A DNA stretch of 64,000 nucleotides. It comes from Streptomyces sp. NBC_01571. GTDB lineage: Bacteria > Actinomycetota > Actinomycetes > Streptomycetales > Streptomycetaceae. Positions 22,434 through 64,000 of this stretch are shown in pieces. The DNA is taken from positions 1,860,001 to 1,924,000 of the forward strand of contig NZ_JAPEPZ010000001.1 of NCBI RefSeq assembly GCF_026339875.1, read 5' to 3'. The notes under the pieces were generated by a model, which made no database searches, had not been told where the DNA came from, and saw nothing but the letters and a program-made list of their open reading frames with translations. Each line of letters starts with the position of its first letter. The stretch's first letter is position 1. The position numbers and the translations under genes are program-made.

Positions 22434-22553
22434 CTACTGATTGATCAGGGGTTCTGCAGTACTCGACTTTCGACGTTTTCGCGGGTCGCTCTGGCGAGTG
22501 TGGCTGTTGGCGTTTGGGTCCTGCGGTCTTGGCGGCGGTCGTAGGGTGAGGCT

Positions 22554-23285: not shown

Positions 23286-23418
23286 GCCGGACCCCGGGGC
23301 GGGGGAGCCCGGTGGCTATCACCTTGACGGGTGAGGCACCGGGTGTCCGGGCCCGTGGTGGGCGGGGCCGCGGCAGCATCGGTGGTGTGGCGACCGCGCC
23401 CGGGGAGGGATACCTGCG

Positions 23419-44947: not shown

Positions 44948-45496
44948 ATGGCACTTCTCAAGGGCAAGGGCGCGATGACCGGAGTCAACCTCATCGCGAA
45001 GGTCTACAAGAACGGCGTCACCAAGGACGGCAAGTCCCAGTACGCCGACGTCCAGCTCGACGCTCGAGATCCGCGCGGTCCGGAGCAGACGAACCTACAT
45101 CTGAAGTCCGATCGGGTTCAGGGTGAGGACGGCAAGGTCCGCTACAACAACGGCGCTCCGTACTCCACCGGTCAGATGGAGGAGATCATCAAGGCCGCGG
45201 GTCCGAACACCGAGCCGATCCTGAACAAGGACGGCAACGAGGTCGGCACCATCTACGGCTTCAAGGGCAACGTGATGCCCGCGACGCGCGGCACTGGCCT
45301 GGTGGTCAACACCAAGTCCGTCGAGGCCTCCGAGTTCAAGGTCGACGACAAGACGCTGGACAACCAGTTCGCGTCCATGCGCGCCGCCCGCGAGGCACGG
45401 GCGGCGGCCAAGGAGTCGCAGGCTCAGGCCCCGGCTCCCGAGGCCAAGCAGGAGCAGGCAGCTGAGGTCGAGGTCGACGAGCCGGCGGTCGGCTGA
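44948..45496 (+). CDS. Small basic/acidic protein of unknown function
   Basis: The ATG at 44948 follows GGAAGGAAGAG; a longer start upstream is not needed. The 182-residue protein has a beta-rich first half (TGVNLIAKVYKNGVTKDGKS, NLHLKSDRVQGEDGKVRY) that might be an OB-like nucleic-acid-binding fold, and a low-complexity Ala/Glu/Gln tail (AKESQAQAPAPEAKQEQAAE). Such a layout is seen in single-strand-binding proteins, but no SSB motif can be claimed. It sits between the relaxase and the SH3b-like genes. Confidence 0.6.
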   Translation: MALLKGKGAMTGVNLIAKVYKNGVTKDGKSQYADVQLDARDPRGPEQTNLHLKSDRVQGEDGKVRYNNGAPYSTGQMEEIIKAAGPNTEPILNKDGNEVGTIYGFKGNVMPATRGTGLVVNTKSVEASEFKVDDKTLDNQFASMRAAREARAAAKESQAQAPAPEAKQEQAAEVEVDEPAVG

Positions 45497-46985: not shown

Positions 46986-49895
46986 ATGTTCCACGAGGCA
47001 CAGCTCAACGAGCGCTACCCACTCCTGTCCAAGCTCTCGGAGCCACTGAAGAAGGCCGAGCGCGACATCGTCGGCCGTGAGCACGAGACGATGCAGCTGC
47101 TGGCCTCGATGAGCCGCCCTGAGCTGTGCAATGCGCTTCTACTGGCCGAGGCCGGAACGGGAAAGACCGCATTGGTCCAGGCCACGATGCTCGTGGATCC
47201 GGGCCGCCTCTACCTGGAGGTGGACCCGGCGCGCATGATCTCCGAGGCGGGCAACGCCGAGAACATGGCCTCGAAGCTCAAGGGCTTCTTCGACGAGGCC
47301 GAGGACTTCGTCAAGGACGAGAAGCACGAAGTGGTGCTCTTCATCGACGAGTTCCACCAGATCATCCAGCTCTCCGACGCCGCTGTCGAGGCCATCAAGC
47401 CGGTCCTCGCGGCTTCGGGAACCCGAGGCATCAGGATCATCGCGGCGACGACCTACGAGGAGTTCCACAAGCACATCTCGCCGAACCAGCCGCTCGTCGA
47501 GCGCCTGCAGCGCATCAACCTCAACCCGCCGGACCAGGCGACGACCATCAAGATCCTGCAGGGCATGGCCGAACGGTACGGGGTGGCCGACGAGTTCTAC
47601 GACGACCACGTCTTCCAGCAGATCTACGAGTACACCCAGCGCTACATGCCGGCCAGCGCCCAGCCGCGCAAGTCGATCCTCGTGCTCGACTCCATGGTCG
47701 GCTGGCATCGCCTGACGCACCGACCGATGGACCGGGACCTGCTCTCGGACGTGCTCATGGAGTCCCTGAACGTGAACGTCGCATTCCGGGTCGACGGCGC
47801 GAAGATCAAGAAGCAGCTGGACGCCAAGGTGTTCAGCCAGGACTGGGCGACCGGCGCGGTGGCGCGTCGTCTGCAGTTGTCGGTGGCGGACCTCAACGAC
47901 AAGGGGAAGCCGATGGCGAGCCTGCTGTTCACGGGATCGACGGGAACGGGGAAATTCTGCGTCGACTCGACGCAGGTTCCTGTCTACTCGAGCGACGGCG
48001 AGACCACCTGGAAGCTGCACGGCGACCTGGTCCCGGGCGACAGAGTGTTCGGTCGCCAAGGTCACCCGGTCGAGGTGCTCGGACACTTCCCGCAGGGCAT
48101 GCAGGACGTCTACCGGGTCACGCTCTGGGACGGCCGGACTCTCGACGTTGGAGGACCGCACTTGTGGACGGTCTACACAGCCAAGCAGCGGTCGAAGAAG
48201 CATGCGGGCAAGGACGTCGCGCCGATGGTCCTGAGCACGCAGGAAATGGTCGAGCGTGGCGTCGTGCGGACCTACCCCGGCGACTCTCGGGAAGATCTGA
48301 AGTTCTTCATCCCGGCGAACGGACCGGTGCACTGGCCGGAGCAGGACTTCGACGTCGACCCGTACGTCTTGGGCGTCCTCATCGGTAACGGGTGCCTCAC
48401 TGAGAGGCAGCTGACGCTCTCGTCTGACGGGGACGACGCCGACCACACCGTGTGGATGGTGGGCGAATGGCTGGGGTCGGCACCGAAGTCGTACGGACGC
48501 AACTACAGCTGGGTTTTCCCTGTCGGTGTTGGCCCGGTGGAGGACCGCCGCGATTCGCTGTACCAGACGAAGGACGTGCTTGCCTCGGTTCCCGATCTGA
48601 TCGGTGCGCGCTCGGCGGAGCGCCGTATCCCGGAGAGGTACAAACACGGATCGGTACAGCAGCGGTGGGCGCTGGTGCGGGGCCTTTTCGACACCGACGG
48701 ATCGATCGGTGCCTCGAACGACCGCTTCAACGTCTCGTACTCGACGTTCTCCAAGGGGCTCACGGAGGACCTTAGGGAGGTGCTGTTCTCGCTCGGCGTC
48801 TCGAACACGATCAAATCGTGGACACGCACGAAGGAGGACGGGCGCGAACTGGTCGAGTACGGCGTGCACGTGAAGGTCGGCAACGAGGATAAGGCCCGGT
48901 TCTTCTCCCTGCCCCGCAAGCAGGAGATCGCACGGCGCGCGGCCATCGAGACCTCGGGTCGTAAGCGCGTGAAGAAGTTCGACATGGTCGGCATCGCGTC
49001 GATCGAGAAGCTGCCGGAGCAGCAGAGCTCGTCGTGCATCTACGTCAACGACGAGGAGCACCTCTACCAGGCTGGTCAGTTCGTGGTCACGCACAACACG
49101 GAGCTCACGAAGCAGCTGGCACGACTGCTGTTCGGTGACGACCAGCGGCACCTGATCCGGTTCGACATGACGGAGTACGCCGAGGACTCGTCGTTCGCGG
49201 CGTTCCGTTCTGAGCTCACCAAGCGCGTGTGGGCCCTCTCCCACGCTGTGCTGCTTTTCGACGAGGTCGAGAAGGCCTCGGCGATGGTGACACGCGTGCT
49301 GCTGCAGGTGCTCGACGACGGCCGGCTCAACGACGCCAACAACCGCGAGGTGAGCTTCCTCAACACCTACATCGTGCTGACGACGAACGCCGGCTCGGAG
49401 ATCTACAAGGACATCGCGCAGTACGCGGCGGACGACACCGGGTCGGGCAAGCAGCTGCTGGAGTACGAGAAGCTCATCCGCCGCTCGATCTCCTCGACGA
49501 CGGGCGACAACCGATTTCCGCCCGAGCTGCTGGGCCGTATCGACGCGATCGTGCCTTTCCAGCCGCTGTCGCTGCTGACGCAGCAAAAGATCGTGCGGAA
49601 GAAGCTGCGCCAGATGGTGCAGGAGGTGTTCGTCAAGCACAACGTGCGCATCGACGTCGATGCGAGGGTCCTGCAGTACCTCATCGAGGACAAGGGCGAT
49701 ACCGCCTCTGATGCCGGCGGTGCGCGTGCGGCTGTGGCGAAGCTGACCGACGAGGTCACCACCGCGGTGGCGACCTTCCTCAACGAGCACCCCTCGGAAC
49801 GGCGTATCCGCATCGACGTCGTCGGCGACCTGGTCAGCGACGACAAGAACCTGCTGAGTTCCGACGCCTACGTCGAGGTCAGCGCGGTGCGATGA
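46986..49895 (+). CDS. Clp/HSP100-type double AAA+ ATPase containing an intein
   Basis: The ATG at 46986 follows GTCGAGAGG and gives a 969-residue precursor (588 after splicing). AAA+ domain 1 has Walker A AEAGTGKT (K60) and Walker B LFIDEFHQI (D121, E122). AAA+ domain 2 has Walker A GSTGTGK|TEL, split after K323 by a 381-residue intein (residues 324-704), and Walker B LLFDEVEKA (D759, E760), the ClpB/ClpA pattern. No N-terminal Clp repeat domain is present, and the protein begins near the first AAA+ domain. HSP100 proteins unfold or disassemble protein complexes. Here it lies among transfer genes, so it may remodel the relaxosome or channel (inference). No peptidase partner is seen nearby. 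Confidence 0.85.
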   Translation: MFHEAQLNERYPLLSKLSEPLKKAERDIVGREHETMQLLASMSRPELCNALLLAEAGTGKTALVQATMLVDPGRLYLEVDPARMISEAGNAENMASKLKGFFDEAEDFVKDEKHEVVLFIDEFHQIIQLSDAAVEAIKPVLAASGTRGIRIIAATTYEEFHKHISPNQPLVERLQRINLNPPDQATTIKILQGMAERYGVADEFYDDHVFQQIYEYTQRYMPASAQPRKSILVLDSMVGWHRLTHRPMDRDLLSDVLMESLNVNVAFRVDGAKIKKQLDAKVFSQDWATGAVARRLQLSVADLNDKGKPMASLLFTGSTGTGKFCVDSTQVPVYSSDGETTWKLHGDLVPGDRVFGRQGHPVEVLGHFPQGMQDVYRVTLWDGRTLDVGGPHLWTVYTAKQRSKKHAGKDVAPMVLSTQEMVERGVVRTYPGDSREDLKFFIPANGPVHWPEQDFDVDPYVLGVLIGNGCLTERQLTLSSDGDDADHTVWMVGEWLGSAPKSYGRNYSWVFPVGVGPVEDRRDSLYQTKDVLASVPDLIGARSAERRIPERYKHGSVQQRWALVRGLFDTDGSIGASNDRFNVSYSTFSKGLTEDLREVLFSLGVSNTIKSWTRTKEDGRELVEYGVHVKVGNEDKARFFSLPRKQEIARRAAIETSGRKRVKKFDMVGIASIEKLPEQQSSSCIYVNDEEHLYQAGQFVVTHNTELTKQLARLLFGDDQRHLIRFDMTEYAEDSSFAAFRSELTKRVWALSHAVLLFDEVEKASAMVTRVLLQVLDDGRLNDANNREVSFLNTYIVLTTNAGSEIYKDIAQYAADDTGSGKQLLEYEKLIRRSISSTTGDNRFPPELLGRIDAIVPFQPLSLLTQQKIVRKKLRQMVQEVFVKHNVRIDVDARVLQYLIEDKGDTASDAGGARAAVAKLTDEVTTAVATFLNEHPSERRIRIDVVGDLVSDDKNLLSSDAYVEVSAVR
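47955..49097 (+). mobile_element. Class 3 intein with LAGLIDADG-type endonuclease domain
   Basis: Removing these 381 residues restores a perfect Walker A motif (GSTGTGK-TEL). The intein begins with Phe, not Cys/Ser, but has the W-C-T signature of class 3 inteins: Trp71 (GGPHLWTV, block B), Cys361 (SSCIYV, block F) and Thr379 before the terminal His380-Asn381 (VVTHN). A LAGLIDADG homing endonuclease domain lies between (YVLGVLIGNGCL and LVRGLFDTDGSI). The first endonuclease motif has Asn (residue 468 of the precursor) where catalytic Asp is expected, so splicing is probably intact but cutting may be lost. Confidence 0.85.
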
Positions 49896-50038: not shown

Positions 50039-52105
50039 ATGGGCATTCTGGGTACGGCAACGGGAAGCCGCAGGAAGGAGCGGAAGAAGAAGCCCGACGA
50101 GCTTCTGGCCTCCGTGGTGAGAGAAACGGCAATCCCGGCGGCGGTAGAGCTGCTGCGGTCGAACACGCAGTTCGTCTTTCCCAGCGGTACGGCCTGGGTG
50201 ATGCTCGTGCTCGCAGCCGACTCGATCGGTGGCTTGAGCAAGCGGCACGGCCGGGACGAGGCGAAGGGCTCGATCATCGAGCTCATCAGCTCCGACCAGA
50301 TCCGCACGGTGGCCACGGCGGAGATGCTCGAAGAGGAGGTCTTCGGCATCATCCCCACCGACGAGACTCTCGCGCGCATGGAGGAGTACTCGCTGCTCAC
50401 CGGTGCCACCTACGCCTGGGCCGTCGTGTGGCAGAAGCCCAGCGGCGATCTGCTCGTCGATCTCGTGAACGATGCGACCTTCGCGCAGGCACGCTTTGTC
50501 GCTGCAGGTACCACGAGCCTCGAAGAAGCCGTGGGCAAGAAGGCATGGGAGGAGCACAGCGGCCTGGTCGCCGAGGCTGGAGCCACTGCCCCCGCGGTCC
50601 TCGGGGAGGACGAGGGGGATGCGATCTTCGACGGAATCCCCGGTGACGAGGGGGCTGCCGAGGGCCTGGACGACGAGCCGCTCTTCAGCGACGTCGTCGA
50701 CGCGGATGAAGGGGCGGACGCATCCATGCTCGGCGAGGACGCCGCAGGTATCGACGACGCGGGCGCCGTCTCGGTCGAGTCGGAGCCGGACTACGACGGC
50801 GACGAGGTGGCCGGCTACGAGGGTTTCGACGAGACCGACGCCGGCTACGGCGTCGAGGGCGACTACCAGGAGGCCGGCGACACTGTGCTGCTGGCCGATC
50901 AGGCCCAGGTGCGCGACGTCATCGCCCGTCGGTTCCTCTCCGAGGAGCTGGACCTGGACGTCCGGCTCGATGAGTTCAACGCAACCTTCGCCATCGGCGC
51001 GCCGGTCGTGCAGATCGCTGTGCCCGAGGGCGCGACGGAGTGGCTCGGGGACCAGGTCGCCCAGCTCAACCGGCAGGCCAACGCAGACCTGATGCAGCTC
51101 CGTTCCGCGCATGAGGATGAGCTGCGTGCGCTCTACGTCAACCTCATGTCGGCGCACACCGAGCAGGTCATCCGCGATGTGGCCACCGACCGCGCGGGCT
51201 CCCGGTACAAGCTGCTGAAGGACGCCGCCGAGGCCGAGCACCAGCAGCGGCAGACGGAGAAGGATGAGAAGATCCGGGCCCGCCGGGCGGAGATCGCCAA
51301 GGACTACGAGTCTCAGGCCTCCAAGGTGGCCCAGCAGGCGGCGCTCTCGGCGGAACTGCAGTACAAGGAGCGCAACCGCTCGAAGATGGAGCGCGAGCAG
51401 ACCGACTCCATCGCCGGGATCGAGCGGGACATCGAGGACACCCACGCGCACAACCAGCAGGAGATCCTGCGGGTCCGGCGTTCGGACGCGACGCTGAAGA
51501 TGCAGACCGGGCAGACGCGGATCTTCGAGGTGCTGGCCGAGCAGCAGTCAAAATACCTGGCGGCCGAGGAAGAGCGCCTGAACCAGTGGAAGTCCGAGAT
51601 CCAGCGGATCGTCGACGACAACCGCAAGGCCGACATCGCCCAGTCCGAGGCGCTGGCCGAGCACCTGCGGACCACGGACGAGATCGGCGCCCTGCGCCGG
51701 GAGCAGCAGGACCTCCTGGAGTCGGTGCGCTCTGAGCACGCCGACCGGATCCGCCGGATGGAGGACGAGCTCGAACGCAACCGCAAGGACGCCATCACGC
51801 AGATGACGGCTCGGGACGCCGAGTGGCAGCACAACCTCGACCTGGAGAAGGAGAAGACCAACTCCCAGGTGGCACGGGTCACCGACCTGCTCCAGCAGCT
51901 GTCGACGGTCGAGGATTCAGTGGCCAGGCGGTATGAGGTGCGCCTGGCGGAGATGCAGGCCGACAAGGAGTCCTACGCCAACGAGCTGGCGCGGGCCTCC
52001 GAGATGCAAAGCCGCTCGAACAAGATCCTCGTCGTCATGATCGTCACGCTCTCGCTCCTGATGGGCGCGGCCGGCTTCATCGTCGGGGTGGTCTTGACCC
52101 GTTGA
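50039..52105 (+). CDS. Tail-anchored coiled-coil membrane protein
   Basis: A 688-residue protein with a globular N-terminus (residues 20-190, e.g. LLRSNTQFVFPSGTAWVML), an acidic Asp/Glu/Gly-rich linker (about 195-295), a long coiled coil (about 350-650, HQQRQTEKDEKIRARRAEIA, YLAAEEERLNQWKSEIQRIV), and a single C-terminal transmembrane helix (about 664-686, ILVVMIVTLSLLMGAAGFIV). The topology resembles tethers that hold a cytoplasmic platform to the membrane. No family is recognised. It has its own promoter box and is followed by a terminator. Confidence 0.7.
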   Translation: MGILGTATGSRRKERKKKPDELLASVVRETAIPAAVELLRSNTQFVFPSGTAWVMLVLAADSIGGLSKRHGRDEAKGSIIELISSDQIRTVATAEMLEEEVFGIIPTDETLARMEEYSLLTGATYAWAVVWQKPSGDLLVDLVNDATFAQARFVAAGTTSLEEAVGKKAWEEHSGLVAEAGATAPAVLGEDEGDAIFDGIPGDEGAAEGLDDEPLFSDVVDADEGADASMLGEDAAGIDDAGAVSVESEPDYDGDEVAGYEGFDETDAGYGVEGDYQEAGDTVLLADQAQVRDVIARRFLSEELDLDVRLDEFNATFAIGAPVVQIAVPEGATEWLGDQVAQLNRQANADLMQLRSAHEDELRALYVNLMSAHTEQVIRDVATDRAGSRYKLLKDAAEAEHQQRQTEKDEKIRARRAEIAKDYESQASKVAQQAALSAELQYKERNRSKMEREQTDSIAGIERDIEDTHAHNQQEILRVRRSDATLKMQTGQTRIFEVLAEQQSKYLAAEEERLNQWKSEIQRIVDDNRKADIAQSEALAEHLRTTDEIGALRREQQDLLESVRSEHADRIRRMEDELERNRKDAITQMTARDAEWQHNLDLEKEKTNSQVARVTDLLQQLSTVEDSVARRYEVRLAEMQADKESYANELARASEMQSRSNKILVVMIVTLSLLMGAAGFIVGVVLTR

Positions 52106-52240: not shown

Positions 52241-55200
52241 ATGGCCACGAACAGGCGGAAGGCAACACGGCCGAAGGCGAGCAGCTGGGACAAGATCTCG
52301 GCGCGGACGCCCGGCGAGACGCTGACGAACCGAGACGTCCACGACAACCAGCAGCTGGACCGCAGCACGTTCCTGACTCTGAGGTCGACCAGACCGGGCA
52401 TCGTCGTCGCGGTGATTACCGGCGTGCTGGTGATGATCGTCGCCTGGGTCTTCTACTCCCTCATCGCCACGGCGGTGCTCTCGGTGGGCGCGTCCGTGGG
52501 TTCGGGCGTGCCCGGCAACGGCACCGGCAAGCCGAGCGTGTACTACGTCCAGGACACCACGACGGGTGCGGGCGGCTCGGTCGTGAAGTGCTACCGGCCC
52601 CTGGCCAAGGACGGCAACCCGGACGTGAAGGCGAAGTGCTACCACAGCGCTGAGGCTGTTCCGGTCCCCAGCTGGTACACCGCGGCGAAGGACGGCAAGC
52701 CCAGCGCCGAGAAGCCGGCTGAGCCCAAGAAGAGCGAGACGACGGTCGGCGAGCAGCTGGCCGACGTCTCGGGGTTCAAGCTCTTCATCACGCTCGGCTC
52801 GGGTCTGATGGTCGCCCTCATCATCGGTACGTGGTTCTCGCGGAAGGTCGCCGCGGCGAACCTGATGAACACCACGAGCGACATCAACCAGTACCAGAAC
52901 GACCAGCACATCTCCCTGCCGGAAGAGATCCAGCAGAACTACGACTGGTTCCCCGACGCCGGTGCTCACTCAAGCGTGCAGGTCAGCTCGATGCTCAGCC
53001 ACATGATGCTCAAGAAGAAGGGCCTGGGCACCGTCGAGGTCGCCCAGCGCGCCAAGAAGGACGTCATCGATGAGGAGGGGAACCTCGTCTACTACGCCGG
53101 CGAGGTCATGGACGACGACGAGGGCGATCCGCTGACGCAGACCCTGCCGATCATCGACGAAGACTTCGGCGACGAGCTGTTCGAGGCATCCGGGCTCCCC
53201 GATGACAAGACGCTGCGGCAGAAGTACGACACGGCACGGATCCCGTACAACCCTGACGGCAAGAACCGGGACAAGCTCGGCTTCGGATCGGACACGTACA
53301 AGACCGTCGCTGACCTGATCAAGAAGGACTGGGAGTTCCCGGCGTACGAGGTCCAGCGCCCGGCCGGGGCGTACGTGGTCGATACCGCGCCGGTGAACAC
53401 CATGGTGCTGGCCATCACCCGAGCCGGTAAGGGCCAGACGTACATCGAGCCGATCATCGACATGTGGTCGCGGGAGAAGAAGCCCTCGAACATGGTCATC
53501 AACGACCCCAAGGGCGAGTTGTTGGTGAAGAACTACGTGCCCCTGGTCACACGCGGGTTCGAGCCGGTGCAGTTCAACCTGATCAACTCCATGAAGACCG
53601 ACATCTACAACCCCCTGGGACTGGCGGCCGACGCGGCGCGTGAGGGCAACTTCACCAAGTGCGCGCTGTACGTGGAGAACATCGCCGGGATCTTCTTTCC
53701 GCTCGACGGCGGCGAGGACCCGGTCTGGCCCAACGCCGCCAACAACGCCTTCAAGCGCGCGGCCTACGGACTCATCGACTTCTATCTGGAGGAGGAGCGG
53801 GAGCTGCGCAGCGCCGCAGCCGTGCTGAATATGGACCCGGCGCTGCTGGAGCAGAAGCTCGATGACCTCTGGGGCAAGGCCACGCTCTACAACTGCTACC
53901 AGCTCTTCGTGCAGATGAGCTCGAAGAAGATCAAGAACCCTGAGGCCGAGCTGGAGAAGCGGGTCAAGGCCGGCGAGTTCGAGAACAACGAGGACGCCCT
54001 GGCCGAGGAGCAGGAGAAGGCTGCGGCCCAGGCCTTCATGTGGGAGGGCAAGGCCGATCAGGACATGCTCAGCCTGTACTTCAACGCGAGCGAGGAGCTG
54101 CCCCGCAACAACATGCGCACGCTGGTGGGCAACGCCCACAACGCGCTGCGCTCGATGGCCGGGGCGGAGAAGATGCTGGCCTCGGTGTACGGAATCGCGA
54201 TCACCGCCATGTCGTTCTTCACCGACCCCACGATCTCGACGCTGACCTCGGGCAAGCCCTCGCAGAACACCGACCTGGCCGGCCTGAGCTTCCCGCGTCG
54301 CCTCGGCGTGCGCTTCGCGCCGAACTACGTCAAGCGCGACCACCTCGTCGGTCAGCAAGCCGTGTGGTCGGCCTACGCGGACCCGATGTTCACCGAGAAC
54401 CTGGGTGAGGACTTCGAGCACGAGGAGATCGTCGGCCGCGAGGGTTGGGCCCGGTACAACTTCAAGGGCAAGTTCCCTGACGACGAGGCCTGGCTCAAGC
54501 TGGAGCTGGTCAACCCGCAGACAAAGATGCTGGTGCGCACCTTCTACTTCAGCTTCACGAAGAACTACCAGGTCTCGCTCAACGGCCGGCACTACGTGGT
54601 CGAGCCGGTGACGGGCAATAAGATCGTGAAGAACGGCGTGATGCGTGAGCTGAAGCCGGTGCGTGAGGGCGGCACCCGGGACGGGAAGATCCTGTCCTTC
54701 CAGCCCGGGGACACGCTCTACCCGGACACGCGACTCGACTTCTCCGGCGTCGGCAACCCGGAGAAGGTCTCGTACCAGGCACGGGCGATCACGCAGACGC
54801 TGTCGCGCTACTCGGAGTCCCCCAAGGCGCTGTTCCTGGTGACTCCACCCCACCTGATGAAGTACGCGAAGCTGATCCTGATCCTGGTCAAGCAGCTGTT
54901 CGACGTGAGCGCCGACCAGGCGTACATGACGAAGTCGAACCAGAAGCCGCTCTACCGCACGCGGTTCATGCTCGACGAGCTCGGCAACCTGCAGTCCGAG
55001 GGCAAAGGCATCGACGGCTTCGAGACGATGCTCTCCATCGGCCTGGGCCAGGAGCAGCAGTTCACGCTCATCCTGCAGACCCTGCAGCAGCTGCGCGACG
55101 TCTACGGCGAGAGCGTCGACAAGATCGTACAGGGCAACACCTCGAACATCGTCTTCTTGAAGTCCACGGACGATTCGATGATCGAGACGCTGGAGAAGAT

Positions 55201-56287
55201 GAGCGGCAAGACGCACCGGTCGTACCGTGACAGCAAGCAGATCAGCCAGGATCTCGACAAGGTCATCGGCGGCAAGACCGAGGGCCGGGTCTCCTACACG
55301 ATGAACACCAAGGAAGAGCCGCTGATCAGCTACAACGACATGGCATTCCTCTCGCCGCGCAACTCGATCGTCTTCCGGGCCGGCGACGCGCCGATCTGGA
55401 ACCGCAACCAGACGATCCTGCCGATGTCGTTCCGGCTGCTGGGCAACACGATCAAGCACCCGGGGCACACGTACTCGCTGCAGACGATCCCGACGCTGTC
55501 CAGTGCCATGGACTTCGACGTGCGAATGAACCAGCCGGACTTCGTGAAGATGCTGGAGAAGCGCATGCGGCAGGCAGTCAAGGCCGCAGACGCGAAGGCG
55601 CAGTACAAGGAGATCTACAGCTACCAGGAGGTCGACATCGAGCGCCTGGATCCCGATGTCTACGCCGACGAGGTCATGGAGGTCATCACGACGATGACCA
55701 CGGTCGACGAGGGCCAGGACCCCAACGCTCCGGTGGTCGTCGACCCCGACGCGTACGAGGGGATGAGCATGTTCGACGAGGACCAGTTCATCGAGAACGT
55801 CGAGGTCGGGGTTGCGGTCGCCGAGAGTCAGGCGGTCAGCGTCGAGCGGCAGCGTCTGCTCTACGCCGAGGGGACGATCAGCAAGGAGATGCTGGTCAAC
55901 CCCGACGGCTCGGCGAAGGTCAAGAGCCTGGACATCGAGATCGGTGAGGCCTACAAGTCGGCGCAGACCGAGTTGGAACAGGATCGCGAGCACTTCTCGG
56001 TCGGCGGCGACGGCGAGCTGCGCAGCGCCGACGGGTCTCAGACGTACATCAGCCAGATCCGCTCGGACGCGTACGCCCATGCGGCCCGCCGGATCAACGG
56101 CCATGTGAACAACGAGGACTCGCGGGTGTTCGCGGAGGGGGACGTCACCGAGGAGGACCTGAAGTCCCTGGCGACGGTGATGGTCCACTCGGCCTTCTAC
56201 CAGTACCTGGCCTCACTGCCGAGCTGGGAGGTGCTGGCCGACGGCCGGTTCGACCGGGCCATGGCCATCGAGATGAACTCGAAGTAG
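52241..56287 (+). CDS. VirD4/TraG-type coupling ATPase
   Basis: A 1348-residue protein with two transmembrane helices near the N-terminus (about 48-72 and 183-200), enclosing an outside loop of about 110 residues. The nucleotide-binding site reads LAITRAGKGQTYIEP (K397; VirD4-type TRAGKGQT, lacking the first Gly of a canonical P-loop), followed by VINDPKGELL. The Walker B site is RFMLDELGNLQSEGKG (D912, E913), and LILQTLQQLRDVYGE is the sensor-like stretch of the family. Coupling proteins bring the relaxase-DNA complex to the channel and drive transfer. The protein is far longer than usual (about 600-700), because of insertions between Walker A and B and a long C-terminal acidic region. Confidence 0.85.
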   Translation: MATNRRKATRPKASSWDKISARTPGETLTNRDVHDNQQLDRSTFLTLRSTRPGIVVAVITGVLVMIVAWVFYSLIATAVLSVGASVGSGVPGNGTGKPSVYYVQDTTTGAGGSVVKCYRPLAKDGNPDVKAKCYHSAEAVPVPSWYTAAKDGKPSAEKPAEPKKSETTVGEQLADVSGFKLFITLGSGLMVALIIGTWFSRKVAAANLMNTTSDINQYQNDQHISLPEEIQQNYDWFPDAGAHSSVQVSSMLSHMMLKKKGLGTVEVAQRAKKDVIDEEGNLVYYAGEVMDDDEGDPLTQTLPIIDEDFGDELFEASGLPDDKTLRQKYDTARIPYNPDGKNRDKLGFGSDTYKTVADLIKKDWEFPAYEVQRPAGAYVVDTAPVNTMVLAITRAGKGQTYIEPIIDMWSREKKPSNMVINDPKGELLVKNYVPLVTRGFEPVQFNLINSMKTDIYNPLGLAADAAREGNFTKCALYVENIAGIFFPLDGGEDPVWPNAANNAFKRAAYGLIDFYLEEERELRSAAAVLNMDPALLEQKLDDLWGKATLYNCYQLFVQMSSKKIKNPEAELEKRVKAGEFENNEDALAEEQEKAAAQAFMWEGKADQDMLSLYFNASEELPRNNMRTLVGNAHNALRSMAGAEKMLASVYGIAITAMSFFTDPTISTLTSGKPSQNTDLAGLSFPRRLGVRFAPNYVKRDHLVGQQAVWSAYADPMFTENLGEDFEHEEIVGREGWARYNFKGKFPDDEAWLKLELVNPQTKMLVRTFYFSFTKNYQVSLNGRHYVVEPVTGNKIVKNGVMRELKPVREGGTRDGKILSFQPGDTLYPDTRLDFSGVGNPEKVSYQARAITQTLSRYSESPKALFLVTPPHLMKYAKLILILVKQLFDVSADQAYMTKSNQKPLYRTRFMLDELGNLQSEGKGIDGFETMLSIGLGQEQQFTLILQTLQQLRDVYGESVDKIVQGNTSNIVFLKSTDDSMIETLEKMSGKTHRSYRDSKQISQDLDKVIGGKTEGRVSYTMNTKEEPLISYNDMAFLSPRNSIVFRAGDAPIWNRNQTILPMSFRLLGNTIKHPGHTYSLQTIPTLSSAMDFDVRMNQPDFVKMLEKRMRQAVKAADAKAQYKEIYSYQEVDIERLDPDVYADEVMEVITTMTTVDEGQDPNAPVVVDPDAYEGMSMFDEDQFIENVEVGVAVAESQAVSVERQRLLYAEGTISKEMLVNPDGSAKVKSLDIEIGEAYKSAQTELEQDREHFSVGGDGELRSADGSQTYISQIRSDAYAHAARRINGHVNNEDSRVFAEGDVTEEDLKSLATVMVHSAFYQYLASLPSWEVLADGRFDRAMAIEMNSK

Positions 56288-56422: not shown

Positions 56423-56463
56423 TGCTTATGTAACCCCGAGCGTCCGCAGGAGGCTGATTGACT

Positions 56464-59400
56464 ATGAAGAAGGCACACGGACTGCGCAGGTACTTCTATG
56501 AGTACGTCTACTACAAGGCAGTCGAGCAGGCCCGGGATCAGACCGGACAGGTCATCCCGATCTCCCAGGCCAAGGCGATCCGCGCCCGGGTCGACGAGAT
56601 CCTCGGACAGCGGGGCACCGCGCTGGCCGACCCGCGGCTGGGCGCCACGGACTGCCTCACCGCCATCGACCAGGCATTCGCGGAGAAGGTGTCCGACTAC
56701 GAGCCGCAGTTCGGTGACCATTCCCCGCAGAACGAGAGCTACCAGCAGTCGCAGCGGGAGTTCATCCGTGCCACCGGCGTCGGTGCCCAGGCCGACCCGA
56801 AGTCGGCCCGGCTGCCGATCAGCCCCTACGACCCCGACTGGTCCGAACGCGCGACCGTGAAGCGCGCCGGGACTGCGCTGGTGTACCTGCCGGACGAGAC
56901 GATCGCACGCGTGGCCGGCGGCGAGGTGGAGACCCTGGCCGATCCCCGTCGCGGGAACATGGTGCTCTGGCGCATCGACGACGAGGGCAAACCTTTCGAG
57001 GCCGGCCGAGCGATGACGAACGATGACGCCGCTGGGCTCACCGCGCTGATGGACAAGATGAGCCAGCAGGAGTACGACCAGGTCCGCGAGTGGGTCATCG
57101 ACGGCGGCCGGGATCCCCAGACGAACCGTGTCGACCGCAACCGCTTCATGTCCCGGCGCGCCGTGGCACGCTCGGCAGCACTGCTCGAAGAGCTGAAGGC
57201 CCAGGGCGTGTCCTACGAGGTGATGCGCGACCGCGAGCCCGGTCAGATCAAGGCGAAGATCGCCCAGACCGGCATGGAGATCCGCCTCACCGACACGCGC
57301 CAGGAGGAGTACGCCGGAGCCCGGATTTACGACAACGGCACCGTGCTGCGCTACTCGACGAACTACCGGGTCCCCGGCGGCATGGCGGTCTACTCCCCCT
57401 CGCCGACGGAAGCCGTTCAGCTGCTGCGCTTCGCCCAGGGCCACCGCATCGAGCGCACGGATCTTCCGGGGCACGCCGCCGGCGAGATGGGCACGACGCA
57501 CCAGGAGCGCGGCCGTGGCCGCACGCTGGTGGATGTGCCCGACAGCTACCACGTCGACCGGGAGTCGATGTTCGTGGTCGGCAACTATGTGGCCCCGGGC
57601 GAGTCCGGTCCCCGGCCCGGGTCGAAGGTGATGCTGCGCCGGGACGCGAAGAACCGCTCCCTGCCGACCTTCTTCATCGACGCCCAGCCCGCTGAGGCCT
57701 ACGCGAAGGCCGCCGTCGAGAGCGCGCGGCAGAACCTGCAGGCAGCTCTTGGCGTCGAAGACCTGATCGCTCGTGCTGAGGCCGAGCTGGAGCGAACCGG
57801 CGGACAGCTGGATGCGATCGAGCCGCCGGAGTACTCGGCTGACTCTGAGGTCGCTGCGATCCAGCGCTCCTACTGGGACGTCCTCACCGGCGCGCACAGC
57901 GATCTGCTGCGCCCGGGGGCGACCGAAGAGATGTACCAGGAAAGGCTGGAGGAGATCGGCGAGTTGCAGGCCGAGGAGGTGCCCGAGATGGGCAACCTCG
58001 TCTACGGCGGCACCGCCGTCGAGAAGGTCCGGCAGCACGCCGAGGACGTCCCCTTCGAACTCATCGGGACCTGGGAGGCGGAGCCCCACGACGTCGACGG
58101 CGAGTGGGTCGACCAGCGCTTCAACCCGGACCGGGTGGCGCGGTACATGACCAGCCCCACCGGGCAGTGGTCGAACCTCGACAACCTCGCCTCGGCGCTT
58201 CGTCGTTGCGGAATCTCCCCCGACGAGATGATGGGCTCGACCTTCCAGACGACCCGGTTCAAGGACCGGCTCGTCCGTTTCGACGCCGAGCGCTCCGTGC
58301 CGATCGCCGATCACGAATCTGCATTCATGCGGCGCATCGGGGCCACCGTGCGCGAGAGCATCGAGCGCAACGCGGCGACGGTCTCCGAGATCCTGGTCGA
58401 CGAGCAGGGCGTCATCCGCTGGAGCGGCGAGAAGCAGCGCCGTGACGGCAAGGGGACTCCGATCTCGGGTGAGATCGGCCAGGTCTTCGATGTCGGCGAG
58501 TACGGCGAGATCACCACCGCCTTCGCCAGCGGGGATAACGCCCTGGTCGTGCCGGGCTACGAGGCCACGATCACGGCCCAGACTCCGGGCGAGGCTCCGA
58601 CCTCGGTCGAGGAACGCACGCGCCTGCGCGGCTACGAGCAGCTCATGCACGAGCGCATCCAGTACCAGATCGCCGGCGACCTCATCGCCGGGCGCAGCGA
58701 GACCGGCGAGCCCTCCTCGCTCAACGCGGTCTACTCGCAGCTGTACGGCACGAAGCACCCGATCGACTTCATCGAGCGCGCCACCACGTACCAGCTCGAC
58801 GAGTCCACCGGCGAGATCAAGGAGCACCTGGACGAGTGGACGGCCGCGATCCTGCAGACCGAGGCGCGCCGTGTGCGCTACTCCAACGAAATCAAGGCCG
58901 GCTCGACGATCTACGCCGAGTACCGGGCCCAGCGCGACCAAACTGACCCGGCTGACGACAACCGCTTCGACGCCTGGCGGCTCACCGGCGGGCGGAACAT
59001 GACGGTACTCACCGGCAAGGACCGGAACAACGTCGCTGCGCCCAGCGGCTACTTCGACCCGGTGATGACCGGAGGCGCGACCAACCAGGGCATCGTGCGG
59101 TACCTGACCACTCAGGCCCAGGTCGACGCCGACGGCCGGATCGTGCCGGGCGACGAGAGCGTGGCCGGACAGCGTGCGCCGCTCATGGCTCTCCCCGAGC
59201 TCGAGACGCTGCGGTACGACCCGTTCGACCGCCAGCAGATGACGGCCTCGACGATCATGCAGTCTTCTGAGGTCACCGCGCCGGCGAAGACGGCGCTGAT
59301 GACCTTCGGCGGCTGGACGGCTGATGACCCGATCGTGGTGTCGAAGGAGTTCGCCGAGCGCCACCGCATCCGCGGCGCCGGCGGCCAGGAGCGCGATCTC

Positions 59401-62010
59401 GTCGTGGGCGACAAGATCTCGGATCTGCACGGCAACAAGGGCGTGATCTCGCTGATCGTCGACCGGGACATGCCGCTGCAGGACGCGCAGGAGCAGGATG
59501 TCGTCGAAGAGGTCAACTGGTTCCGGGCCAACCCGGGCCTGGACGTAGTGATGAGCCCGTTCAGCCTGATCTCCCGGCGCAACGCGGGCTCGGCGCGCGA
59601 GCTGATGAGCGGAAACGTCTCCGACCTGCGCTCCCCCAACGGAGAACTGCGGCCGAGTGCCCTGGGCGAGATGCGCTTCGTGGTCACCCACATGGCCGTC
59701 GACGAGAAGACAAAGATCTACGACGACGAGCAGGTGCGTGCTGGCAAGGGCCGCAAAGCCTCCTCGCAGCTGGCCTGGGCGCTGCAGTCTCAGGACTGCC
59801 CGGCGATCATGCGCGAGTTCTACGGCCACAACAGCGGGGCCGAGTCGAACCTGCGCGAGTACCTGCTGGTGACCGGCATGGACATGGAGGCTGACGGCAC
59901 ACTGCGGGTGGTCGGCCAGGCCGAGGGCATCGACGAGCGCCCCGAGCGCCGGTTCATCCCGATGCCCGAGCTGCTGCGCACTCAGCCGCGCAAGGAGGGC
60001 CAGCTCCCGGGACTGAACACCACGGCGATGCGCAAGTCCTTCGGCAATCTCATCGGCGACCGCGGCGGCGACATGGAGATCCCGTTCCCGCTCACGTATC
60101 CGACCGGTGAGCAGACCGAGACGGTGAGCGCGAGCTCGTGGAAGCTGCCGGTGATGTCCTCACATCTGCGCAGTGGCCAGGAGTTCGAGGACGGGTCCTC
60201 CGTCACGCACGACTACACCCGCAGCTACCAGGACGTCTTCGTCGAGGCCTGCCGCTACCGCTACATGACCGAGCAGCTGGACGGCCAGGGTCTGTCCGCG
60301 GAAAAGCGCTCCGAGGTGCGCCGCGGCATGAGCGAGTCGGTCTCGCGCGCTCAGCGCGCCTTCGAGGCGATCACGACCGACGTGCAGAACCGGGTGCTCA
60401 CGGGCAAGAACAACATCTTCAAGACCGGGCTGATGGCCTCGCGGTTGACCGACTCGGCGACGATGGTGTGGACTGCGGACCCGCGGCTGGACGTCGACCA
60501 GGTTGCGCTGAGCTCGGTCAAGGCCGAGCAGCTGGGGCTGGCCGAGGGTGACCACGCGCTGGTGTGGCGTGACCCGGTGCTCCGTGACGCCGGCGTGCGT
60601 TACATGCGGGTCGCGATCGACGACCGGCTCACCGGTGCCGCGATCAACCCGGTGATGGACGCCTGCTTCGACGGCGACTTCGACGGCGACTCGGTCGCCG
60701 TGGTGAAGCTGCACAGCGAGGCCGCCAAGGGGGAAGCCCTGGCGAAGCTCTCGGTGCCGGCCAACCTGCTGGACACCGGCGTGGTCAAGGGCGACGGCTC
60801 GCACCCGCTGGCCATGCAGGTCTCGCTGGACACCCAGGTCGCGCTCTCCAAGGACACTGCTCTGGCTGAGGAGCTGGAGAGCTCGCGCAGCGAGGCGAAC
60901 CGGCTCCGGCTGCAAGCGCTCACGGGCGCAGAGTCGCCTGAGGACATCAAGCTCGACCAGCAGGTCGTGACGGAGGAGCTGAGCGCGCTGTACCGCCAGG
61001 CGCAGCGTGGCGAGTTCGGCGCGGCACTGACGTTCTCGGACCGCGAGGCGCACCTGCAGAGCGTGCGCGAGGTCTGCGTCGAGACCGGTGCCAAGGGCAG
61101 CGAGAAGAAGCTCACCGACTACGCCCGGAACCTGGGCGATGCGCAGGGCACGCCCGGCATCACGCAGGCCGACCAGGAAGCCTCGATGTTCGCCACGGCG
61201 ATCAAGGCTCACGGCACCGGCCTGGGCGGCTCGTTCAGCCAGCGCGCCGTGCGCGCGCTGCGCGGCGAAGACCTCAAGGCCGTCCTGGAGGTCACCTACC
61301 CGGTGACCCAGTCGATCCTGCAGGCCAAGCACGACGCCGCCGAGGCCCGGCACAAGTATGCGATGCTCCAGGGCCCCGGCCGCGAGCTCTGGAGGGGCCG
61401 CAGCATCGAACACGTCGGCCCCGGTCAGTGGCGCACGGCATTCCTCGACGGTGAGCCCGTCCAGGCCACGGCCGAGGAGTGGGAGAAGAAGTTCATCGAG
61501 TTCTACGAGTCCAAGGAGGGCTTCGGCGTCACGGTCAACCCGGCCTACGTGGCCCGCGTGGCCAGTTCGCTGGAGGACCCGAAAACCGGGCTCATCCGCA
61601 ACCTCGAAGAGGACCCGTCGCTGCGGGGCACCGTCATGGACCGGATGGCCTACGGCGGTGGCTTCGAGGCGCTCGTGCAGGCGGCCAAGAACCGCGAGAG
61701 CGTCTACGACGGCGAGAAGAACGAGCAGTTCGCGTCCTCGGGGACCCGGAAGGCCCGTGCGGAGATGTCCCGGCAGCTCGAGCAGCTGAGCTCCGCCGAG
61801 GCGCAGGGCCTGGACAGCGCTGCGATCGCCGTCGATGACTCGGCGGTCAAGCGCGACGTGATCTCTCAGGACGCGGGGGCCTCCCGCACCCGCGGCTCGC
61901 ACCGCCGCTCTGCGCATGCCGTGGGCGTGGGCGCGTCGCGCCCGGTCTACACGCCGAGCATCGAGATCGATCAGCCGCAGGGCGACGACGACTACGGGGC
62001 GGGCTACTGA
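56464..62010 (+). CDS. Single-chain two-barrel RNA polymerase (fused beta/beta'-like)
   Basis: An ATG at 56464 follows AGGAGG; a TTG at 56458 is possible. The 1848-residue protein has the beta-type motif GDKISDLHGNKGVIS with K984 and K992, eight apart like the two NTP-contacting Lys of bacterial RpoB, then VMSPFSLISRRNAGSARELM, LGEMRFVVTHMAVDEKTK and SSQLAWALQSQ in RpoB order. Further on come VWRDPVLRDAGVRYM and ACFDGDFDGDSVAV with D1405, D1407 and D1409, the Mg-binding DFDGD of beta', and a trigger-loop-like TQSILQAKH (Q1616, H1623, the beta' spacing). The first 900 residues are novel. Two-barrel single-chain polymerases are known from phage (YonO) and killer plasmids. No sigma factor is nearby. 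Its stop is one base before the next gene. Confidence 0.85.
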   Translation: MKKAHGLRRYFYEYVYYKAVEQARDQTGQVIPISQAKAIRARVDEILGQRGTALADPRLGATDCLTAIDQAFAEKVSDYEPQFGDHSPQNESYQQSQREFIRATGVGAQADPKSARLPISPYDPDWSERATVKRAGTALVYLPDETIARVAGGEVETLADPRRGNMVLWRIDDEGKPFEAGRAMTNDDAAGLTALMDKMSQQEYDQVREWVIDGGRDPQTNRVDRNRFMSRRAVARSAALLEELKAQGVSYEVMRDREPGQIKAKIAQTGMEIRLTDTRQEEYAGARIYDNGTVLRYSTNYRVPGGMAVYSPSPTEAVQLLRFAQGHRIERTDLPGHAAGEMGTTHQERGRGRTLVDVPDSYHVDRESMFVVGNYVAPGESGPRPGSKVMLRRDAKNRSLPTFFIDAQPAEAYAKAAVESARQNLQAALGVEDLIARAEAELERTGGQLDAIEPPEYSADSEVAAIQRSYWDVLTGAHSDLLRPGATEEMYQERLEEIGELQAEEVPEMGNLVYGGTAVEKVRQHAEDVPFELIGTWEAEPHDVDGEWVDQRFNPDRVARYMTSPTGQWSNLDNLASALRRCGISPDEMMGSTFQTTRFKDRLVRFDAERSVPIADHESAFMRRIGATVRESIERNAATVSEILVDEQGVIRWSGEKQRRDGKGTPISGEIGQVFDVGEYGEITTAFASGDNALVVPGYEATITAQTPGEAPTSVEERTRLRGYEQLMHERIQYQIAGDLIAGRSETGEPSSLNAVYSQLYGTKHPIDFIERATTYQLDESTGEIKEHLDEWTAAILQTEARRVRYSNEIKAGSTIYAEYRAQRDQTDPADDNRFDAWRLTGGRNMTVLTGKDRNNVAAPSGYFDPVMTGGATNQGIVRYLTTQAQVDADGRIVPGDESVAGQRAPLMALPELETLRYDPFDRQQMTASTIMQSSEVTAPAKTALMTFGGWTADDPIVVSKEFAERHRIRGAGGQERDLVVGDKISDLHGNKGVISLIVDRDMPLQDAQEQDVVEEVNWFRANPGLDVVMSPFSLISRRNAGSARELMSGNVSDLRSPNGELRPSALGEMRFVVTHMAVDEKTKIYDDEQVRAGKGRKASSQLAWALQSQDCPAIMREFYGHNSGAESNLREYLLVTGMDMEADGTLRVVGQAEGIDERPERRFIPMPELLRTQPRKEGQLPGLNTTAMRKSFGNLIGDRGGDMEIPFPLTYPTGEQTETVSASSWKLPVMSSHLRSGQEFEDGSSVTHDYTRSYQDVFVEACRYRYMTEQLDGQGLSAEKRSEVRRGMSESVSRAQRAFEAITTDVQNRVLTGKNNIFKTGLMASRLTDSATMVWTADPRLDVDQVALSSVKAEQLGLAEGDHALVWRDPVLRDAGVRYMRVAIDDRLTGAAINPVMDACFDGDFDGDSVAVVKLHSEAAKGEALAKLSVPANLLDTGVVKGDGSHPLAMQVSLDTQVALSKDTALAEELESSRSEANRLRLQALTGAESPEDIKLDQQVVTEELSALYRQAQRGEFGAALTFSDREAHLQSVREVCVETGAKGSEKKLTDYARNLGDAQGTPGITQADQEASMFATAIKAHGTGLGGSFSQRAVRALRGEDLKAVLEVTYPVTQSILQAKHDAAEARHKYAMLQGPGRELWRGRSIEHVGPGQWRTAFLDGEPVQATAEEWEKKFIEFYESKEGFGVTVNPAYVARVASSLEDPKTGLIRNLEEDPSLRGTVMDRMAYGGGFEALVQAAKNRESVYDGEKNEQFASSGTRKARAEMSRQLEQLSSAEAQGLDSAAIAVDDSAVKRDVISQDAGASRTRGSHRRSAHAVGVGASRPVYTPSIEIDQPQGDDDYGAGY

Positions 62011-62011
62011 A

Positions 62012-63751
62012 ATGGCACAGCACAAGGAACTGGGAACGGGCCCTGCGGGCCGCCCGCGCGCGGCCAAGGAGCTTCCGGTGGACGACGATCGGCAGCAGGC
62101 CGACGAGCCGCAGAGCAGCGCATACGCCTACTGGGACTCGCGCTCGGACGAGCCGATCGACGCCGAGGTGATCGACGAGCCCGGACCGGAGGACGCAGAC
62201 GGTTCGCGCGCCTGGCGCGAGCGGCTCCGGGACCGCGCCCGCGGGTTCTTCGGCGCGAAGACACAGGATCGGATGGCCGACCGCGAGCGCGTGCACGGGA
62301 TCGACGTCGACCGGGCAGAGGACGAGACCGAGGGCCTGGAACAGCGCGAGCAGCTGCTCAAGCTTCGGGCGGAGACGCGGCTGGCCGGCGAGAAGTACAT
62401 GGCCTCGCTGCGTGACTCGAAGCTGCTGGTGCCCGGCTTCAACGACGAGGAACGGACGCAGGAGCTCGGCGTCATGCACCACGTCTACATGCAGATGATG
62501 ATGCAGTCGTGTCTCAAGCCGCTCTCGCGCGGAGTGAATGCCAACTCGATCATCCAGGCCGTCGGCATGGTGATGACGATGCGGATGCTCGCCCCGGACT
62601 TCAAGAAGGAGATGGACAGCTACCTTCAGCCCCTCAAGGACAAGATCCAGGAACGCATCGACACCAGGACCCGCGGCATGATCGCCTCTGCCGAGAGCGG
62701 CATCGCGCACCGGCAGAGGATCTTCAAGGACGTGCCGAGCGACGCCCGGCGCGAGCGCCTCATCGGCAGCACCGATCCGCGTGACCACCTGACGAAGAAG
62801 TGGCGCAAGCGCTTCGACGCCATGCAGCACCGTGAGCGCGGCCACCGGGAGATGTTCACCCCGGACTCGGCAGCCATGACCGAGGTCGCGCTCATGGAGA
62901 ACGCCTTCTGGAAGATGCGTGAGCCGGGCGCGGACGCCGGCCTGATCCGCGACAGCTACCGGGCGATGCGCAAGCGGCTGCACGAGCAGATGCGCGAAGA
63001 CGGCCTGGAGCGCCAGGAGGTCGTCCAGCGCGCGCGAATGATCATCGGCGAGCGGATGGAGTACGAGCCCGAGCTGCGCACGATGTTCAACGGCGTGGCC
63101 CACGGCCGGATCGTCAAGGCTCCCGCGCACGAGGAGCGGATCGCAGGCTCCGACCGGGTCCGCACGGTCTGGAGCGGGGAGTTCGACGACCAGCTGGGTC
63201 AGCGTCTGCCCGAGGACGGGATGTTCACGCTGCGCCGGCCCATGGATGCGGACGCCCACCAGGTCCAGCTCGCCGAGACGATGAAGACCTCGCTGCTCGA
63301 CGCGCTGGGCCGCAGCGACCAAGAGGGCTACGGGGGCAACATGCTCGGCTACCTGGTCGGCTTCGCGGCACAGAAGCAGGGCCTGGACACCAGCGGACTG
63401 CCCGACACGCTCCAGCACCGCCTGGACCAGTCCGAGGTGATGATCGCGAGCATGGACATCGACGGCCTGCCGCCCGAGGAGCAGCAGCGGGTCTACTCCA
63501 ACGCTTACGTCGACGCGATGGAGGCGGTGAACGAGAAGTACCCGGATCTTGAGGCCGAGCTGAAGCGGAGCCTCGGGGAGAACTGGCAGCAGACGCTGCA
63601 GACGGCGGTCGACGACCCGGGTGCCTTCTTCGAGGAGCAGCGGCTCAAGCCGCGGTCGCGCCCTACGGGTCCGTCGTCCGAGCAGGAGGCCGGCCCGCAG
63701 AACGAGAGCCCGAACGCTGAGGCCGATTCCGAGGACTACCAGCCCGCCTGA
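62012..63751 (+). CDS. Unknown helical protein translated with the RNA polymerase-like protein
   Basis: The ATG at 62012 lies two bases after the previous stop; 579 residues. An acidic, disordered N-terminus (about 1-75) is followed by a helical protein (LLKLRAETRLAGEKYMASLR, MHHVYMQMMMQSCLKPLSRG, VNANSIIQAVGMVMTMRMLA, FKKEMDSYLQPLKDKIQERI). No known domain is seen, and no Cys or His cluster, zinc site or helix-turn-helix that would identify a transcription factor. The tight coupling to the polymerase gene makes it the first candidate for an accessory subunit or template-recruiting factor (inference). It has no membrane segment. Confidence 0.7.
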   Translation: MAQHKELGTGPAGRPRAAKELPVDDDRQQADEPQSSAYAYWDSRSDEPIDAEVIDEPGPEDADGSRAWRERLRDRARGFFGAKTQDRMADRERVHGIDVDRAEDETEGLEQREQLLKLRAETRLAGEKYMASLRDSKLLVPGFNDEERTQELGVMHHVYMQMMMQSCLKPLSRGVNANSIIQAVGMVMTMRMLAPDFKKEMDSYLQPLKDKIQERIDTRTRGMIASAESGIAHRQRIFKDVPSDARRERLIGSTDPRDHLTKKWRKRFDAMQHRERGHREMFTPDSAAMTEVALMENAFWKMREPGADAGLIRDSYRAMRKRLHEQMREDGLERQEVVQRARMIIGERMEYEPELRTMFNGVAHGRIVKAPAHEERIAGSDRVRTVWSGEFDDQLGQRLPEDGMFTLRRPMDADAHQVQLAETMKTSLLDALGRSDQEGYGGNMLGYLVGFAAQKQGLDTSGLPDTLQHRLDQSEVMIASMDIDGLPPEEQQRVYSNAYVDAMEAVNEKYPDLEAELKRSLGENWQQTLQTAVDDPGAFFEEQRLKPRSRPTGPSSEQEAGPQNESPNAEADSEDYQPA

Positions 63752-63792: not shown

Positions 63793-64000
63793 ATGAGCCA
63801 GGAACAGAATGAGGGACAGCAGGTCAGGTTCGGCTCACGTTTTGCGCGGATGTTCGGCTACGTCACGCCGGAGGACCGGAGCCGATGGGAGCAGCAGCGG
63901 GCGCAGAACAAGCCGAACGTCAACGCGATCAAGCAGGGCACGAAGTCGGCGCTGGGCTCGATGATGGAGTTCGGGGAGCGCAACATCGGCGCGAAGCTCG
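63793..64000 (+). CDS. Partial gene cut by the window edge
   Basis: ATG at 63793 after GGAGGAAGGG. The first 69 residues (FGSRFARMFGYVTPEDRSRW, NKPNVNAIKQGTKSALGSMM) continue past the end of the window. No identification is possible. It lies 41 bases after the previous stop and belongs to the same operon. Confidence 0.7.
   Translation, partial: MSQEQNEGQQVRFGSRFARMFGYVTPEDRSRWEQQRAQNKPNVNAIKQGTKSALGSMMEFGERNIGAKL

Follow-up and report, generated by a model that had tools for sequence, protein, structure and literature searches.

Why should a conjugation block carry a gene for a protein that resembles the beta and beta' subunits of cellular RNA polymerase (RNAP) joined in one chain? The question is raised by 64,000 nucleotides from Streptomyces sp. 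NBC_01571 (NCBI RefSeq assembly GCF_026339875.1, contig NZ_JAPEPZ010000001.1, positions 1,860,001 to 1,924,000 of the forward strand; this whole stretch is called the window). Its sequence, its conservation and a confident structural model give good support to an element-borne two-barrel polymerase. The reading proposed is that a VirD4-type coupling protein likely passes this single-chain RNAP relative, predicted to be active, to the recipient, and that RNA would be made there on the incoming strand; its probability is put at about 0.46.

The polymerase gene and its relatives

The gene is one frame of 1848 residues plus stop, open already at 56458 (TTG). The first-pass annotation, made from the sequence letters alone, had reported both catalytic halves of multisubunit RNAP in this single frame, and the frame, the residues quoted and the Pfam matches agree with it. 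The parts of the gene are as follows.

56464..62010, plus strand: single-chain beta/beta'-like RNA polymerase, 1848 residues (open frame, Pfam, profile and fold matches, conservation)
56464..59043, plus strand: N-terminal region, about residues 1-860, without recognised counterpart (AlphaFold model, Foldseek)
59407..59439, plus strand: beta-type GDK...HGNK motif, residues 982-992 (Pfam, hhalign, alignment)
60670..60690, plus strand: beta'-type DGDFDGD metal-binding motif, residues 1403-1409 (profile match, hhalign, alignment)
61087..61101, plus strand: GAKGS motif, residues 1542-1546, corresponding to GARGS in RpoC (alignment, profile match)
61306..61332, plus strand: trigger-loop-like TQ-x6-H, residues 1615-1623 (alignment; Q in 72/73, H in 70/73)
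61975..62007, plus strand: acidic C-terminal tail, last 11 residues, a candidate transfer or docking signal (tail comparison; putative function)

RpoB and RpoC of Escherichia coli (from locus L124) served as the yardstick for motif order and spacing. GDKISDLHGNK begins at residue 982 (K984, K992; RpoB has GDKMAGRHGNK at 1063), RDPVLRDAG at 1369, DGDFDGD at 1403 (D1405, D1407, D1409) and TQSILQAKH at 1615 (Q1616, H1623; RpoC has TQLTMRTFH at 928). The Lys, Asp, Gln and His positions and their E. coli yardsticks are as the annotation had given them; GAKGS at 1542, equivalent to RpoC GARGS at 729, was absent from its list. Pfam Rpb2_6 (RNA polymerase Rpb2 domain 6) matched residues 975-1055 above its gathering cut-off (E 2.5e-8; 33.9 versus 23.4 bits), and Rpb1_2 (Rpb1 domain 2) matched residues 1358-1426 just below it (E 1.7e-4; 22.3 versus 25.3 bits). 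No Pfam match to a T7-type polymerase domain was obtained at E ≤ 0.1, the defence-system search with PADLOC gave no match for the polymerase, and PHROGs gave two weak ones, one of them named RNAP beta subunit.

When the family profile was compared with known polymerases by hhalign, RpoC was matched with a probability of 97 (E 2.6e-11) and RpoB with 94 (E 9.4e-8). The likeness to YonO proposed in the first pass gained no such support (probability 0.5 for a 625-residue piece of phi3T YonO), and values for P23-45 gp64 (3.8) and for a 1577-residue phi14:2 piece, taken here as the RNAP of that phage, were also low (0.2 for the latter), single-sequence targets making these three comparisons weak tests. 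Of the two facing barrels that had been predicted, the beta' half is matched by fold: the fold comparison recovered a beta'-type core, with matches covering model residues 503-1144. The beta-type barrel is supported by the sequence matches of Pfam and hhalign, the fold matches being limited to the beta' half.

Three protein searches, each scoring ∼7990 candidates and listing at most the best 120, returned 585, 560 and 111 homologues at E ≤ 0.001; the weak end of the last set carries ordinary RNAP domains. In an alignment of 73 sequences (the query and 72 picked by hand for spread), K984, K992, R1038, N1040, R1369, P1371, D1405, D1407, D1409 and K1544 are identical in 73/73, including the Asp and Lys residues whose conservation the annotation had named beforehand as the check that could refute it, and the trigger-loop residues Q1616 (72/73) and H1623 (70/73) are nearly invariant. 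Such invariance suggests that the enzyme is catalytically active. The ratio of non-synonymous to synonymous substitution rates (dN/dS) is 0.15-0.27 versus five relatives; the gene is under purifying selection. The polymerase is rare: with the window polymerase as query and E ≤ 1e-20, only its own genome was found among 394 of its class (1/394).

A viral origin was considered and rejected. A first scan of viral contigs, with the window polymerase, gave nothing. When the alignment was used as query, 56 loci were recovered, of which L068 and L069 match across most of the core and 54 across shorter segments. With a Staphylococcus member as sole query, 13 of 50,697 phage records matched, over 3-9% of the query, and the annotated phage matches, which bear the names RNAP beta or rpoC, look like host-type genes. 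Upstream of the polymerase gene, a small hairpin (window 56439-56455) may mask the ribosome-binding site in the actinobacterial relatives; the evidence is weak, RNAalifold giving 4 pairs, 2 with changes on both sides, among 22 sequences at an energy of only -0.25 kcal/mol.

Linkage to the coupling protein gene

A scan of GTDB contigs yielded 58 loci, 50 of which (L010-L059) have a family frame of at least 915 residues, some broken or cut by the contig end; L060-L067 were dropped because they match a short RpoB segment only. The actinobacterial group comprises L010-L041, 31 of whose titles carry actinobacterial genus names; L040 (Candidatus Lumbricidophila) we take to be actinobacterial as well. 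By their titles, most loci of the second group (L042-L059) belong to Bacillota; L043 is from a Muribaculaceae genome and L052 from a metagenome-assembled genome of Bifidobacteriaceae. Using iterated profiles, a VirD4-type gene was found on the same strand and at most 4 kb upstream of the polymerase gene in 32/32 actinobacterial loci and in 11 of the 15 second-group loci that have at least 3 kb of upstream DNA (L042, L051 and L052 are too short). In 38 of the 43 linked loci, the gap between the two genes is less than 220 bp. All 32 actinobacterial loci share the order AAA ATPase, 688-residue protein, VirD4, polymerase, 557-residue protein, and its upstream part recurs in Paenibacillus (L044, L050), Shouchella (L047) and a Lachnospiraceae genome (L056). 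The Staphylococcus plasmid pAYP1020 is annotated, in order, with MobL, AAA ATPase, coupling protein, polymerase (as hypothetical), topoisomerase and lysozyme, with other genes interspersed.

The linkage is also seen from the side of the coupling protein. Among 72,556 plasmid records, 13 carry the polymerase and 12 a coupling protein of its clade (E ≤ 1e-30), all 12 lying within those 13; the records are partly dependent, as two Staphylococcus aureus plasmids are of equal length and four Lactococcus plasmids look alike. Because the two genes are ∼35 kb apart in these four Lactococcus records, their association goes beyond mere adjacency. In Streptomycetaceae, the coupling protein occurs in 5/394 genomes and the polymerase adjoins it in all five; in one of these, a same-genus relative (G581:C1:149885-155454), the polymerase gene is split over two frames near residue 271, beside an unbroken coupling protein gene. 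Elsewhere the coupling protein was found in 1/348 genomes of the class of L047 and in 1/341 of that of L056, each time in the centre genome only. Distances between polymerases correlate with those between coupling proteins (r 0.93; 24 actinobacterial loci and plasmids; 0/2000 permutations as high), after removal of near-identical loci and of eight others whose genes were broken, partial or weak. Being reciprocal and reaching into Bacillota, the link to conjugation is thus stronger than could be known at first.

In the window, a relaxase (MobL) and a coupling ATPase (T4SS-DNA_transf) lie in one block, as in a VirD4-dependent conjugation module, and this bears out the conjugative setting that had been read from the sequence. 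No Pfam match to a VirB4-type channel ATPase was found among the proteins scanned, several large neighbours matching no family at all. The neighbouring genes are the following.

35152..37341, plus strand: phage-tail-lysozyme-type wall hydrolase (domain search)
42522..44765, plus strand: MobL relaxase (Pfam, E 3.6e-114)
44948..45496, plus strand: 182-residue neighbour (in 19/32 loci of the actinobacterial group; many loci begin past it)
46986..49895, plus strand: ClpA/ClpB-like AAA+ ATPase with intein-like insert (domain search)
50039..52105, plus strand: 688-residue conserved neighbour (p688) with hydrophobic C-terminus (no Pfam match)
52241..56287, plus strand: VirD4/TraG-type coupling protein, 1348 residues (Pfam, T4SS-DNA_transf)
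62078..63751, plus strand: 557-residue conserved downstream neighbour (locus comparison)
63793..64000, continuing to 64158 in the genome, plus strand: 121-residue protein whose tail resembles those of the polymerase family (locus and tail comparison)

The insert of the ClpA/ClpB-like ATPase (46986-49895) bears a LAGLIDADG domain, and the matched frames in several relatives are far shorter. In the coupling protein, which is long (1348 residues), the CD1115-type VirD4 family of 442 positions is matched in a region that spans residues 381-1056, a spread suggestive of a large insert. A transposase-bearing stretch of 2310 bp (22461-24770) has a 100% identical second copy in the same orientation, beginning ∼700 bp beyond the window end, so that the copies flank the conjugation block. 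To the left of the block, a minus-strand cluster of large genes includes one for a protein of 1092 residues (16521-19799; DUF6603, E 5.4e-133).

The C-terminal tail and the proposed role of the polymerase

Past a variable linker, the polymerases end in tails of two classes: DDYGMGY-like (585- and 560-homologue searches, mainly Actinomycetota) and GFDLEM-like (111-homologue search, Staphylococcus relatives ranked first). An ending of the form hydrophobic-E/G/Q-hydrophobic was found in 82/209 and 26/81 distinct tails versus 0.9% of linker control positions, and the acidic fraction of the last eight residues was 0.29 and 0.28 versus 0.10 and 0.18 farther in. The 121-residue protein, present in 32/32 actinobacterial loci, has a polymerase-like tail in 17 of 20 distinct orthologues. 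Among the controls, VirD4 (0/30), p688 (0/31), the AAA ATPase (0/26), the 557-residue protein (0/29), the 182-residue protein (0/18) and MobL (0/10) lack it, and HU has it once (1/24). The tail is regarded as a putative docking signal for the coupling protein.

Taken together, the linkage and the conserved tail suggest delivery into the recipient, and the analogy with injected virion polymerases and conjugation-moved proteins suggests use on the incoming strand. The acidic C-terminal tail would mark the polymerase for the neighbouring VirD4-type coupling protein, which would hand it to the recipient cell; there, the enzyme would synthesize RNA on the incoming single strand, and this RNA would either prime second-strand synthesis or express early genes. 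Conjugated DNA does enter as a single strand, and proteins are known to be moved by an F-type system (PMC8406263, excerpt), just as phages are known to inject polymerases (excerpts of PMC10770324 and PMC5512222). That a MobL-type system exports a tail-tagged two-barrel transcriptase, by which the arriving strand is transcribed before, and independently of, the host polymerase, is put forward tentatively.

Several observations weigh against delivery into the recipient. The coupling protein is missing upstream in 4 of the 15 second-group loci (L043, L046, L053, L057), and one Lactococcus plasmid, pJM4A, has a polymerase gene but none for this coupling protein. Distances also correlate for the AAA ATPase (r 0.96) and p688 (r 0.97), and any gene inherited with the block would give the same linkage and correlation. 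The tail pattern was picked after the tails had been inspected; in its strict form it fails in 127/209 and 55/81 distinct RNAP tails, the window polymerase (GAGY) lies outside it, and in the locus set only 14 of 55 RNAP entries, at least 8 of the 55 being outside the family, fit it. The tail could instead bind the AAA+ ATPase or another partner. The RpoC stretch that we take to be the clamp helices is retained together with the next segment (73-sequence profile versus residues 239-513 of the cellular beta' chain, E 2.5e-21), and a helical pair is predicted at this position, which makes contact with host factors possible. Finally, pGKT2, which bears a family member and has been transferred in the laboratory (excerpt of a review), encodes a P4-type primase of its own, so that the polymerase does not simply stand in for an absent primase on this plasmid.

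Among the loci lacking the upstream coupling protein gene, L043 has a RecD2-type helicase nearby, and the polymerase genes of L046 and L053 adjoin one for a DEAD-box helicase; in L046, a coupling protein gene lies ∼7 kb off on the opposite strand. In the regions L046:8753-15509 and L053:3750-9285, shorter relatives of the polymerase (frames of 1393 and 915 residues) lie directly 5' of the DEAD-box helicase gene. A second, helicase-linked polymerase type outside the usual module (L046 and L053; L043 with the RecD2-type enzyme) is possible.

Rather unlikely is a dedicated transcriptase that acts in the donor, or after establishment, and reads the transfer genes from promoters of its own, as YonO does for late phage genes. 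A one-chain two-barrel enzyme is able to serve one mobile element, as YonO illustrates (PMC5467207, excerpt), and many transfer genes are set apart by an intergenic region, in several of which hairpins resembling terminators were seen by eye. In 16 intergenic regions, a 12-wide motif (one of three widths) scored above all shuffles (39.9 versus a null maximum of 36.6), which leaves room for a shared element. This motif is, however, purine-rich, varies in its distance and resembles a ribosome-binding sequence. The 18-wide motif stayed under the null maximum (56.5 versus 57.5) and the 26-wide one was level with it (82.8 versus 82.5); the null, 8 base shuffles with fewer seeds, was lenient. Host-type promoter scores gave a mixed picture, reaching p ≤ 0.05 ahead of the 688-residue gene in 8/33 loci, the polymerase gene in 6/33, the 182-residue gene in 5/11, VirD4 in 2/33 and the AAA gene in 1/29. 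Such scores were thus reached in a minority of transfer units, and the motif search gave no other kind of promoter that convinces. Short words enriched between genes differ by lineage in several of the 17 loci covered: CTATCGA in L015 (8 versus 0.11 expected), ATGATCA in L034 (6 versus 0.06), TGACTCA in L030 and CGACTCG in L033, with nothing striking in other loci and with all p-values uncorrected for the number of words. They are possibly sites of a fast-changing regulator.

Less probable still is a two-barrel primase-polymerase that primes or copies DNA during second-strand or vegetative replication of the element. No primase family was matched among the neighbours scanned, which are part of the genes of the element, and none is annotated on the complete plasmid pAYP1020, many of whose genes are hypothetical; moreover, the two-barrel fold is able to make DNA in archaeal PolD (PMC7281927, excerpt). 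Against this, pGKT2 has a P4-family primase as well, RNAPs make up the nearest matches, and Gln and His of the trigger loop are almost always retained. That catalysis was lost and the protein acts as a scaffold, or interferes with the host polymerase as a decoy, would suit a chain almost half of which lacks a recognised counterpart and is very improbable in view of its invariant catalytic residues and low dN/dS.

Delivery into the recipient is modestly preferred over transcription in the donor because of the co-occurrence with one coupling protein clade across phyla, the lack of the flap (see below), a tail resembling a recognised peptide and the scant promoter evidence. The first-pass interpretation is, on the whole, partly supported: the action on incoming DNA that it had considered fits the linkage and the tail, whereas the donor-side transcription that it had also offered lacks clear promoter evidence in the sequence.

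Comparison with known polymerases and transferred enzymes

The order of the motifs GDK...HGNK, SRxNxG, RxPxLxxxG, DFDGD, GA[RK]GS and TQ-x6-H is identical to that in cellular RpoB and RpoC, with the difference that beta and beta' are separate chains there and one open frame here. The window polymerase is also trimmed. From the NGYNFEDSILVS strand to GDK, there are 243 residues in RpoB, which we take to be the location of the flap, versus 21 here, leaving no flap insert. Between the starts of GA[RK]GS and TQ-x6-H, the distance is 199 residues in RpoC and 73 in the window polymerase. Ahead of the LPV motif, RpoC has 241 residues, presumably including its zinc site; the window polymerase has ∼80 back to the end of the beta part (judged by eye), lacks a stretch like the RpoC N-terminus and contains six cysteines in its whole chain. 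For the ∼860 residues ahead of the beta part, no counterpart is recognised. Residues 1-840, modelled by AlphaFold as one piece, reached a mean predicted local distance difference test score (pLDDT) of 89.3, and Foldseek found no structure in the PDB at E ≤ 0.001, though single domains may have escaped. The 50 entries listed by VIA-align include no bacterial chain, beta chain, YonO, QDE-1 or PolD, which is uninformative because only the first 1000 chains from Foldseek were covered.

Two-barrel polymerases on mobile elements are already known. YonO-like RNAPs likewise have two barrels in one chain and are borne by a mobile element, but YonO has ∼100 kDa and no detectable trigger-loop homology (PMC5467207, excerpt), whereas the present chain has 1848 residues and a conserved trigger-loop-like motif. 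The NCGL1702-like group, compared by description only, shares the mobile-element setting, the two barrels and the lack of a flap insert, and the window polymerase may belong to this very lineage; in cellular RNAP, the flap holds sigma or TFIIB (PMC7824862, excerpt). Plasmid single-subunit RNAPs and fused derivatives of cellular RNAP are mentioned as well (PMC10770324, excerpt). Searches limited to open-licence papers showed, among the papers listed, no description of the tail, of a part played in transfer or of the association with the coupling protein, and, on the conjugation-linked lineage, one mention of 'NCGL1702-like' and nothing more.

As to the proposed logic, there is a likeness to injected virion RNAPs (P23-45 gp96, those of crAss-like phages and that of N4), which enter together with the DNA; they are virion-borne, whereas the present polymerase belongs to a conjugation module. 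The N4 enzyme is T7-like (PMC5512222, excerpt), and the P23-45 protein compared above is gp64, the non-virion enzyme. Primases moved by conjugation (RP4 TraC and Sog, cited in an excerpt of PMC5512222) resemble it in that a synthesis enzyme travels with the transferred strand, and differ from it as Toprim-type primases without two-barrel motifs. Arriving DNA needs to be copied or expressed, and a polymerase tied to one coupling protein clade in two phyla would show that a conjugation system supplies the enzyme itself. If the reading is true, the family, common to Actinomycetota and Bacillota, would be to conjugation what the injected virion polymerases are to phages, and, as a single-chain form of cellular RNAP that lacks the flap, it would help to study which parts transcription needs.
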